A stretch of 49,695 bases of DNA from Spirochaetes bacterium GWB1_27_13 (GTDB taxonomy: Bacteria; Spirochaetota; GWE2-31-10; MWDO01), in assembly GCA_001829125.1 (NCBI GenBank), contig MIAN01000032.1, positions 1 through 49,695 of the forward strand, read 5' to 3'. Each line of letters opens with the position of its first letter. The stretch's first letter is position 1. The notes beneath the pieces are model-generated. The model saw only the letters and a list, made by a program, of their open reading frames with translations, had not been told where the DNA came from and did not search any database. Shown here piece after piece: positions 9,930 through 14,112 of this stretch. The position numbers and the translations under genes are program-made.

Positions 9930-12545
9930 TTACTCATTCACCACTGGAAAAATCAATTTTTGATAGATGTTGTCTCTGTCAATTGTTGGATTTTGTTTTC
10001 CATCGCTTGATTTTGAGACTGCCGATAAAACGAAGCTTTTTAGTTCTTCCATCGTGATTTTACCGTCGCCGTTTGTGTCTGCCATATTTTTTTGGAAAGC
10101 GTTAATTATTTCTTCTGTAAATAAACCATTTTCTAGCCTACTATCTTCGTAAGAAAACTCGCCACCTTTTGATGACGAAAAAACTACAGCTCCACTTCTT
10201 CTTGCTAAGTCATTATAAATAAATCTATCCTTTTGCATAGAATAAAATTTTTTATTAGTAGTAGTTTTATTTTGGTTAGAAGAGATTCGTTTTAAGCTTC
10301 TTGCATTAAGAGTCGTGACTTTTTGTTCATTAGTTAAATTAATGTTTTCATCAGTGTCAAGTTCGCCAGATTCGCAAGTATCCATAAGGAAGAGTTTATT
10401 TCTTGCTTTTGCTTCTTGTAGAATATTTTCTATCAAATCAAAATCTGCTGCTGTTTTTGATAAATTTTTTATATCCGTATCATAGGTTACATAATAGTAA
10501 GTATTTTCTTTGTCATTATCATGAAGTCCATGTCCTGCTATAAATAAAATTAGAGTGTCATCAACTTTTGTATTTTGGACTAATTTTTTTGCATTTATAA
10601 TGTTATCTTTTTTGACATCTTTATCTAAGTAAGCGTAAGTATAGATATTGTTATAAAAATCTTTTTGCTTTGAGAATAATTGTTTTAAATCAGTAACGTC
10701 TTTATTTGCATATTCTAGATCTGTAATATCATCTGATAAATAGTTTGATACTCCAAAACCAATAAAATATAGGTCTCCTTTGACTTCCTTTTTATAATTA
10801 ATTTTTGTTAAGGCTCTAAAAGATTCTGCTCCTTTTTCGTTTGTGCATGTAATTTCAATTTTATTGTCGCCAGAGCCAAGCTCGATTATTTCTTTTATAG
10901 TTTGTGAGTTTCCAGAAGTTTCTTTGCCAAGTATTCCAAAGACAGGAACATCGTTTACAAAAATATTATATAATTTAAGATTAAAGTTATTATCCTTTAA
11001 TTTGAATGTTATTTCGGCTAATTTATCGTTTTGTTTTGCTTCTATTATTTTAACCTCTGGAACTTCCAATTTTTCTGCTAAATTTTCTTCTTTTAAATTA
11101 AATTTCCTGAGTCTTTTCTTAAATTGGTTATAATAATGGTCAATTATATCATTATTTTCAAACCCTATTCTTTTTAAAATAATGTCTGGTCTATTGTATT
11201 TTATTGCAAACTGGTCTACACCAAAAACTTCCATCTCATCGGTTACCATTGCAACAAGTTTTCCACCATACAAAGAGGCATCCCAATATCCATCTGGTGT
11301 AAAACAAAACCATTGTTCTTTTTCAGAAACAAGACTTACCAAATCACCTGTATTTAGATTTATAATATTAACAGTGCCATCCATAGAACCTACAATAACA
11401 TTTTTACAATCATCTGTAAGTTTGATAGAATAAGCTATTGACGACAAAATCGGGTAATTTTTAATTAAATTATCGGTAAAATCAACTGTTTTAATACCAG
11501 GAATGCTTCCACCCTTATTATCTGGTGTATAACTTGCCTCAACGATAAGTTTTTTATCAATACTAAAATCACCAAACCCGCCAAGACTGCGAGATTTATT
11601 TACCAAAAACACTCCTGAAAGATTGCAGACTTTAAAGGTAGAATGTGAAAATAAGCCAATAAGTTTACCTGACGAGTTAAATTTAATAGAAATCACATTT
11701 GGGTCACCTATTATAGTACTAGAACTACCGTCTGAGTAATCCCAAACTTTAATAAGTCCATCAAGCATACTATAACTTATAAAATTGGTTTTATCTGGGC
11801 TAAATATAATTTTAGTTACATATTTACTTGGATCAGTATTATGTAAACCAAATACTTTGATAAATTTCCCATCTAAAGAATACAAGTCTATTCTATTTAA
11901 ATATTCTACCTGTCCTTGTATATTTAGCTTTAATCTTGTGAAAAAATAAATTAAACTATAAACTTCATCAGAATTTGCATTTTCATCGAGGATATAGAGT
12001 TTTTTATCATTATCAAATAAAAAACAGTTTTTTAGAGCCTTAGTTTCTTCTTCTGTATTTGTTTTTGTTAGTAAAGCCTTAAATTTTTTTTCGTCAAACT
12101 CATAAGGAAAAAGTTTTGTTTGTGTAATTGCACTACCTATCAAAATATTTTTATTGTCAGGTGTAAAACTTATTGCATAAAGTTGTTTACTGCCAAAATC
12201 ATTCTTTGGTTTTACAGTTATTACTTTGCCAGTGAGTATATTTATGGTTTTAAAGCTCATTCCATCAGCAAGACCAAGATATTTGTTATCATAAGAAAAA
12301 CAAAAACTACCACTTGCCATATTATTATCATTATTAAAAACTCTAATAAGTTTACCTGTTTTATGCCAAATCCTAACATCATTATCATAGAATGTTGTAG
12401 TGGCAAAATATTCTCCATCATCGCTAAATTCAATTTTTGCAATGCTTCCAGTATTACCACCTTGCAGTACCATTTTTAAGTTTTGAGAATTTAAATTTAA
12501 CATAAAGCTAAATAAAAATAATAGAATTATAATCTTTGTTTTCAT
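9930..12545 (-). CDS. Secreted WD40-caspase (C14) protein with C-terminal EF-hand
   Basis: The 871-residue protein begins with a signal peptide (MKTKIIILLFLFSFMLNLNSQ). Residues about 25-420 are WD40-like repeats (SIAKIEFSDDGEYFATTTFYDNDVRIW; later KIIFSPDKTNFIS...IKVWDYSDG). Residues about 500-590 look like a beta-sandwich linker. Residues about 590-815 are a caspase-like peptidase domain with the dyad His672 (FIAGHGLHD) and Cys724 (LFLMDTCESGEL). Residues 823-834 (DTNGDGKITMEE) are a textbook EF-hand loop. The expected activity is cysteine proteolysis, possibly Ca2+-dependent as in metacaspases, acting outside the cytoplasm. The ATG at 12545 has GGAAGGTG directly after a dispersed-repeat end. 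The target and any partner are unknown. Confidence 0.88.
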   Translation of the reverse strand: MKTKIIILLFLFSFMLNLNSQNLKMVLQGGNTGSIAKIEFSDDGEYFATTTFYDNDVRIWHKTGKLIRVFNNDNNMASGSFCFSYDNKYLGLADGMSFKTINILTGKVITVKPKNDFGSKQLYAISFTPDNKNILIGSAITQTKLFPYEFDEKKFKALLTKTNTEEETKALKNCFLFDNDKKLYILDENANSDEVYSLIYFFTRLKLNIQGQVEYLNRIDLYSLDGKFIKVFGLHNTDPSKYVTKIIFSPDKTNFISYSMLDGLIKVWDYSDGSSSTIIGDPNVISIKFNSSGKLIGLFSHSTFKVCNLSGVFLVNKSRSLGGFGDFSIDKKLIVEASYTPDNKGGSIPGIKTVDFTDNLIKNYPILSSIAYSIKLTDDCKNVIVGSMDGTVNIINLNTGDLVSLVSEKEQWFCFTPDGYWDASLYGGKLVAMVTDEMEVFGVDQFAIKYNRPDIILKRIGFENNDIIDHYYNQFKKRLRKFNLKEENLAEKLEVPEVKIIEAKQNDKLAEITFKLKDNNFNLKLYNIFVNDVPVFGILGKETSGNSQTIKEIIELGSGDNKIEITCTNEKGAESFRALTKINYKKEVKGDLYFIGFGVSNYLSDDITDLEYANKDVTDLKQLFSKQKDFYNNIYTYAYLDKDVKKDNIINAKKLVQNTKVDDTLILFIAGHGLHDNDKENTYYYVTYDTDIKNLSKTAADFDLIENILQEAKARNKLFLMDTCESGELDTDENINLTNEQKVTTLNARSLKRISSNQNKTTTNKKFYSMQKDRFIYNDLARRSGAVVFSSSKGGEFSYEDSRLENGLFTEEIINAFQKNMADTNGDGKITMEELKSFVLSAVSKSSDGKQNPTIDRDNIYQKLIFPVVNE

Positions 12546-12960: not shown

Positions 12961-14112
12961 ATGAAAATCGGCTATATTTTTTTATTTTTAGTATTGTTTA
13001 TTTCTTTTTCTTTTGCACAAGAAAAGGATAGTTTATTTCCAATTTGTAACTCTTTAGGTGAATATGGATTCATTGATAAGACTGGAAAAGTAGTAATAGA
13101 ACCTCAATTTGGTGGCTCTTTTTACTTTTCAGAGGGATTATGTGCCGTTAAGACTGGTTCAAAGTGGGGATATATTAATAAATCAGGTAAATATGTAATT
13201 AATCCCGCTTATGATGGAGTTGGTCCTTTTATGCAAGGAACAGCTGCTGTCTTATTAAATGGGAAATGGGGATATATTAATAAAAAGGGACAAACTATTA
13301 TTAAACCTACTTTTAATTGGTGTGGTAATTTTTCAAGATTTCTTACTGCTGTTTTGGTTGGTAAAAAATGGGGATATGTAGATCAAGATGGAGTTATGAT
13401 TATTAAACCACAGTATGACGAAGCTTATGAATTCACCAAGGATTTGGCTTTAGTTAAAATCGGAAATAAATGGGGATATATAGTGGATACAGGTGCTATG
13501 ATAATTAGTCCTCATGGCTATGATGATGCTTTTAGTTTTTCATCTTCAGGTCTTGCCGCTATAAAACAAAAAGATAAGTGGGGATATATCAATACGATAG
13601 GAGAAATAGTTATTAAACCTCAATTTGATTGTGTAACAACATTTAATGAAGGACTTGCATTAGCTTATGTTAGTGGGAAATGTGGATACATCAATGAAGA
13701 AGGTAATTTTGTTATAAATCCTAAATATGAAGAGGCAACAAATTTTTCTGAAGGACTTGCTGCAGTTAAAATTGATGGTAAATGGGGATATATTAATAAA
13801 AAGGGAAAAATCGTAATAGAACCAAAATTTGAAAATGTTTCAGGATTTTATAATGGCCTTGCATGGTGGATATCGGAAGACTATAACTGGGGATATATTG
13901 ACAAAAAAGGAACCACTATTTGGGAATTACATCCTAAAAAAGACACTGATCTTACTGCTGAAGAGATAAAAAATCAAGTACTTAAGGCATTTGAAGAACT
14001 TGAAAATGAACTAAGTCTTATAAAAGACCTTGAGGAAATTGATGTTGAAAATGGTCATGCTGTAGCTAAGTCAAATGCAGAAGACTGGAAAGAGGCAGCT
14101 TCCTCTGAATGA
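12961..14112 (+). CDS. Secreted WG-repeat protein
   Basis: The 383-residue product has a Sec signal peptide ending in SFAQ and then nine tandem WG repeats of about 32-36 residues, each with the core KWGYINKKGKIVIEPKF (first repeat EYGFIDKTG, seventh KCGYINEEG, ninth NWGYIDKKG). A short charged C-terminal tail rich in Glu follows. WG repeats are beta-rich surface or periplasmic modules of unknown function, usually assumed to mediate binding. The ATG at 12961 follows GGGAGA, and a good promoter lies upstream. It is a single gene, transcribed towards the hybrid kinase gene. Confidence 0.9.
   Translation: MKIGYIFLFLVLFISFSFAQEKDSLFPICNSLGEYGFIDKTGKVVIEPQFGGSFYFSEGLCAVKTGSKWGYINKSGKYVINPAYDGVGPFMQGTAAVLLNGKWGYINKKGQTIIKPTFNWCGNFSRFLTAVLVGKKWGYVDQDGVMIIKPQYDEAYEFTKDLALVKIGNKWGYIVDTGAMIISPHGYDDAFSFSSSGLAAIKQKDKWGYINTIGEIVIKPQFDCVTTFNEGLALAYVSGKCGYINEEGNFVINPKYEEATNFSEGLAAVKIDGKWGYINKKGKIVIEPKFENVSGFYNGLAWWISEDYNWGYIDKKGTTIWELHPKKDTDLTAEEIKNQVLKAFEELENELSLIKDLEEIDVENGHAVAKSNAEDWKEAASSE

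Follow-up and report, generated by a model that had tools for sequence, protein, structure and literature searches.

Introduction

Among the partner domains of prokaryotic caspase homologues, WD40 repeats are the most frequent (73 of 671; PMC3501461). Orthocaspases are delimited among these homologues by a published criterion based on domain models, namely a C14 p20 domain with its catalytic dyad and without a separate metacaspase p10 domain, and they show basic P1 specificity (PMC6426788). Discussion of calcium control among caspase relatives usually centres on the metacaspases, most of which need Ca2+ in eukaryotes, whereas prokaryotic orthocaspases are described as calcium-independent, as is the characterised enzyme MaOC1 (PMC5756287; the contrast is also cited to PMC7475262); paracaspases are likewise described as Ca2+-independent dimers (PMC8283722). 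The presence of EF-hand motifs in prokaryotic caspase homologues is already on record: such a motif was reported in 7 archaeal homologues, where it is given as an additional domain with no placement in the fold (PMC6426788). For the loop as part of the caspase fold we found no description in the open literature, many subscription papers lying outside the search.

Here we describe a spirochaetal protein in which structure prediction places an EF-hand inside the caspase fold, at a location that differs from the known calcium sites; it seems to be conserved at that place in a large set of exported C14 proteins from bacteria. If the loop binds calcium, the rule of calcium independence for orthocaspases needs revision, Ca2+-free assays of such enzymes could overlook activity or stability, and one can test whether cell compartment and calcium are linked in a simple way.

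Gene and domain organization

The window (the whole stretch of DNA analysed, 49,695 nucleotides from Spirochaetes bacterium GWB1_27_13) carries the gene on its reverse strand, with the following features.

9930-12545, minus strand: whole ORF of 871 aa, with signal peptide, WD40 repeats and a C14 domain with an embedded EF-hand loop
12553-12561, minus strand: Shine-Dalgarno-like AGGAAGGTG 5' of the ATG start (from sequence)
12486-12545, minus strand: signal peptide, residues about 1-20, MKTKIIILLFLFSFMLNLNS (from sequence, heuristic call)
11256-12482, minus strand: WD40 repeat region, residues about 22-430, approximate boundaries (Pfam WD40 and related propeller models, phmmer)
9957-10754, minus strand: Peptidase_C14 (caspase) domain, residues 598-863, enclosing the EF loop
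10530-10532, minus strand: catalytic His672, invariant in alignment A2
10374-10376, minus strand: catalytic Cys724, invariant in alignment A2
10203-10370, minus strand: low-confidence linker 3' of the Cys motif, residues about 726-781, several Lys/Arg (pLDDT <50 over much of it)
10092-10124, minus strand: helix alpha4, residues 808-818, E helix of the EF-hand (AlphaFold2 model)
10044-10079, minus strand: EF-hand loop, residues 823-834, DTNGDGKITMEE (sequence, Pfam, alignment of relatives)
10008-10052, minus strand: helix alpha5, residues 832-846, F helix of the EF-hand (AlphaFold2 model)
9975-9986, minus strand: beta strand, residues 854-857, after the EF-hand and within a conserved Q[NH]PTxDRDN tail (alignment A2, AlphaFold2 model)

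The initial annotation had read a signal peptide, WD40 repeats and a caspase domain in this one chain, and Pfam bears out both domains: Peptidase_C14 (PF00656) matches residues 598-863 with E=1.6e-16 (61 bits, the cut-off being 21.4) and the WD40 repeats with E=1e-11, while phmmer matched WD40 structures, the best being 2ymu (E=2.4e-25). The signal peptide MKTKIIILLFLFSFMLNLNSQ was called by eye and by a hydropathy heuristic. The catalytic dyad lies intact at exactly the residues that had been claimed, His672 within FIAGHGL and Cys724 within MDTCESGE, and a canonical EF-hand loop does occupy residues 823-834, where EF-hand_5 (PF13202) matches residues 820-839 above its gathering score (E=3.1e-6). 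The full PROSITE EF-hand pattern is also matched there, this being its one match in the 14,182 residues of the 31 window ORFs taken as genes. No separate p10 domain model of Pfam matched the protein, and its C-terminal half of alpha4, alpha5 and strand is present in the predicted fold. By profile, fold search (see below) and His-Cys dyad the window protein is a member of the C14 caspase-fold family, proteolysis itself being predicted.

The linker at residues 726-781 is a candidate autoprocessing linker. It is closed by a block strongly conserved in the A2 consensus, KDR[YF]IYNDLxRRSGA, itself a candidate autoprocessing or substrate-binding element.

Position of the loop in the predicted fold

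Residues 586-871 were modelled with AlphaFold2 using an input alignment of 45 members, giving a mean pLDDT of 82.5 and a pTM of 0.84. In the model the loop at 823-834 (pLDDT about 95) has a helix on either side, 808-818 before it and 832-846 after it, and a strand follows at 854-857; by their order and general knowledge of the fold, we take the two helices to be caspase alpha4 and alpha5. A 12-residue PROSITE/Pfam loop between two helices, the usual definition of an EF-hand, is thus found here (PF13202, helices 808-818 and 832-846). The Pfam C14 envelope extends beyond the loop, and since the strand at 854-857 comes after the EF-hand the C14 domain continues past it. Because the envelope passes the loop and the model sets the loop between caspase helices, the EF-hand is, as modelled, part of the protease domain, lying in the turn between the alpha4 and alpha5 equivalents and not forming an appended module.

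The initial annotation had instead put the EF-hand C-terminal of the protease domain, which was wrong; what stands of its interpretation is that this exported caspase homologue, its dyad intact, has a real and conserved EF-type loop. It had proposed structure prediction as a check, and had set against its own reading an EF-hand on a detached, dockerin-like tail. Such tails share with the window protein an EF-hand-type loop close to the C-terminus; however, a dockerin has two EF loops in a separate C-terminal module, whereas here a single loop lies inside the C14 envelope and fold, with caspase helices alpha4 and alpha5 on its two sides as E and F helices and a further strand of the C14 domain behind them. 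A detached tail is therefore ruled out.

Comparison with known caspase relatives

Foldseek searches with the model returned the paracaspase MALT1 as top structural match (E=8.6e-12, 16% identity), together with bacterial GSU0716 (3bij), metacaspase 9 and caspases; MALT1 differs from the window protein in its partner domains. With orthocaspases such as MaOC1 of Microcystis the window protein shares the p20 core, the His-Cys dyad, an acidic residue before the Cys and WD40 as a common partner. It differs in its alpha4-alpha5 EF loop, MaOC1 being compared here by its published Ca2+ independence and not by sequence.

Type I-III metacaspases, most of them Ca2+-controlled, resemble the protein in their C14 fold, as the match to metacaspase 9 indicates, but the EF loop lies elsewhere than their p20 site or 280-loop. 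The Asp-rich Ca2+ motif of the metacaspase p20 part (D..GDE.DG.DE, between His and Cys) is absent from the window protein, which reads GHGLHDNDKENTYYYVTYDTD, and a metacaspase-type Ca2+ site is thus ruled out for it. Ten other proteins of the C14 set have this motif. All six from the sample of the spirochaete phylum (L018, L019, L121, L150, L152 and L172) carry the alpha4-alpha5 loop as well, against 0 of 4 from other phyla; judging from their motifs, each of these six exported proteins may possibly have two calcium sites. For a metacaspase-like relative from spirochaetes, alignment to solved metacaspases was confined to the p20 part. Sequence searches found no solved structure with the same loop, the A1 profile retrieving mainly calmodulin-type EF-hands and, weakly, metacaspase-4.

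Conservation and loss of the loop

A search for homologues with the same C-terminal loop, another check proposed in the initial annotation, found such relatives in the window's phylum and in GTDB genomes. The GTDB set comprised 67 loci, many from Spirochaetes MAGs and others from Delongbacteria, Bacteroidetes, Desulfobacteraceae, Myxococcales, SAR324 and others; the nearest relative lies on a contig of 5,246 bases (G008:C260) from the same order as the window's genome. In alignment A2 (45 relatives, 38-56% identity) both dyad residues are invariant, and loop position 1 is D in 44 sequences (a gap in one), D or N stands at position 3 in 43 and at position 5 in all 45, and position 12 is E in 44 (D in one). 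Positions 1, 3, 5 and 12 are all canonical in 43 of the 45, with positions 2, 4, 7, 10 and 11 variable, and the Pfam EF-hand_1 model matches 25 of the 45 members when scanned separately.

Many other bacterial C14 proteins have similar loops. Of 179 non-redundant C14 tails, 68 match the strict PROSITE pattern, compared with 0.03% of shuffled homologous segments; these shuffles, the ligand conservation and the single match among the 31 window ORFs rule out a chance match.

The loop is also lost. It is missing or degenerate in L064, L071, L077 and L093, all with an intact dyad, and degraded in L014, which reads ADYTGKGKITINML. We built a FastTree tree of 282 C14 sequences from an alignment stripped of the loop columns; on it the state of the loop, present or absent, changes at least 24 times, 7 of these within the DxCESG group. 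The loop-deleted L064 was predicted (pTM 0.85) with helices 221-232 and 238-252 joined by a short turn and with the same final strand; on the strength of this prediction, the caspase fold does not seem to require the loop.

Export and the loop

We compared loop presence with export, calling signal peptides throughout by a simple heuristic. A first test, which used automatic start calls, gave no association of the loop with a signal peptide (Fisher p 0.69), in part a consequence of the many miscalled starts. With those data already known, we then set up a cytoplasmic class of proteins that lack a signal peptide and start with the C14 domain at the very N-terminus; to make this class larger we brought in genomes from two more phyla, and we deleted two of its rows (L374 and L345) manually. 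With these classes the loop is found in 0 of 24 clearly cytoplasmic proteins against 105 of 216 C14 proteins with a heuristically called signal peptide. The corresponding Fisher value of 7e-7 treats related sequences as independent and is not a real probability: the 24 cytoplasmic proteins amount to 8 lineages, and when sequences were paired on the tree, the informative pairs were too few for a test, with none of them contrary. The contrast between export and loop is suggestive and, with phylogeny considered, not yet significant. The loop was also absent from all 26 new proteobacterial C14 proteins, 22 of which have a called signal peptide; export therefore does not require the loop.

Possible roles of calcium

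We favour, with a probability of roughly 0.55, the reading of the window protein as an exported, caspase-like protease stabilised by a Ca2+ clamp, the loop being no separate sensor. The chain, presumably exported, would combine WD40 repeats, which probably hold a partner or substrate, with an orthocaspase-like C14 cysteine protease of caspase fold, expected to cleave most likely after Arg or Lys if it shares the P1 preference of orthocaspases. An insertion in the alpha4-alpha5 turn would form a single EF-hand, at whose loop Ca2+, plentiful outside the cytoplasm, would be held more or less permanently; the bound ion may clamp alpha4 and alpha5 and stabilise the C-terminal (p10-like) half. The prediction for L064, in which the same helix-turn-helix persists without the loop and with the dyad intact, is as expected of a stabilising add-on. 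Near-invariant ligands would fit a regulatory site too, however, many exported C14 proteins have no loop, and on the cytoplasmic side the export contrast draws on 8 lineages, with signal peptides called heuristically. Activation of the window protease by Ca2+, as the initial annotation suggested, is possible. A switch of this kind, in which the apo protein would be inactive or unfolded in the calcium-poor cytoplasm until Ca2+ met after export orders the p10-like half and activates the protease, is in our view unlikely, although the near-invariant ligands, the lack of the loop in cytoplasmic C14 proteins and its presence in all six exported spirochaetal proteins with the p20 motif agree with it. 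Our preference for a clamp over a switch has two grounds: the loop has been lost from relatives whose dyad and predicted fold are retained (with 7 or more state changes in the DxCESG group), and calcium is as a rule not limiting outside the cell. The alpha4-alpha5 turn of caspases is, besides, expected on the face away from the active site, which also speaks against a switch, although a Ca2+ requirement does have its precedent in most eukaryotic metacaspases (PMC5756287). More doubtful is the wider proposal of an unrecognised Ca2+ safety device common to exported bacterial caspase homologues, by which an EF-hand on the p10-like helices would keep the protease unfolded or inactive in the cytoplasm and would let it fold and act only once outside, giving calcium dependence by a route other than the metacaspase site.

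Two further readings would give calcium another part or none. The turn might be an EF-like surface feature that binds no calcium in vivo, as its repeated loss or degradation across C14 (at least 24 changes in 282 sequences, L014 being an example) could indicate, but the four ligand positions kept in 43 of 45 divergent relatives and the EF-hand_1 matches in 25 of 45 members make this improbable. EF-hands usually act in pairs and caspases often act as dimers, and only one EF-hand was found in the window protein; its loop could accordingly join the EF-hand of a second copy or of a partner, so that Ca2+ would control assembly and not stability. We consider such pairing quite improbable, given neighbouring genes without a partner EF-hand protein and relatives without conserved neighbours.

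Genomic context

The relatives showed no conserved gene neighbours, and none of the genes near this one in the window encodes a partner EF-hand protein. The adjacent, divergent gene (12961-14112, plus strand) encodes a WG-repeat protein (8 stretches matching PF14903, E=7.6e-93) with a signal-peptide-like N-terminus, and a TPR-containing histidine kinase lies farther away. PADLOC gave a partial caspase match (16.8 bits, E=7.8e-4); this match being weak and the neighbours not conserved, an anti-phage defence system was dropped. The context thus assigns nothing beyond an exported WD40 caspase homologue.

The same genome holds further C14 sequences. One C14 gene (L026, G000:C175) encodes a WD40 paralogue whose EF loop is intact; an exported C14 form with a DSCFSG motif (L003, G000:C118) has no EF loop that we could see. 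A third match (G000:C135:18076-18222) covers 49 residues corresponding to residues 821-869, with 57% identity and one stop, and is probably a remnant of the end of another C14 gene.
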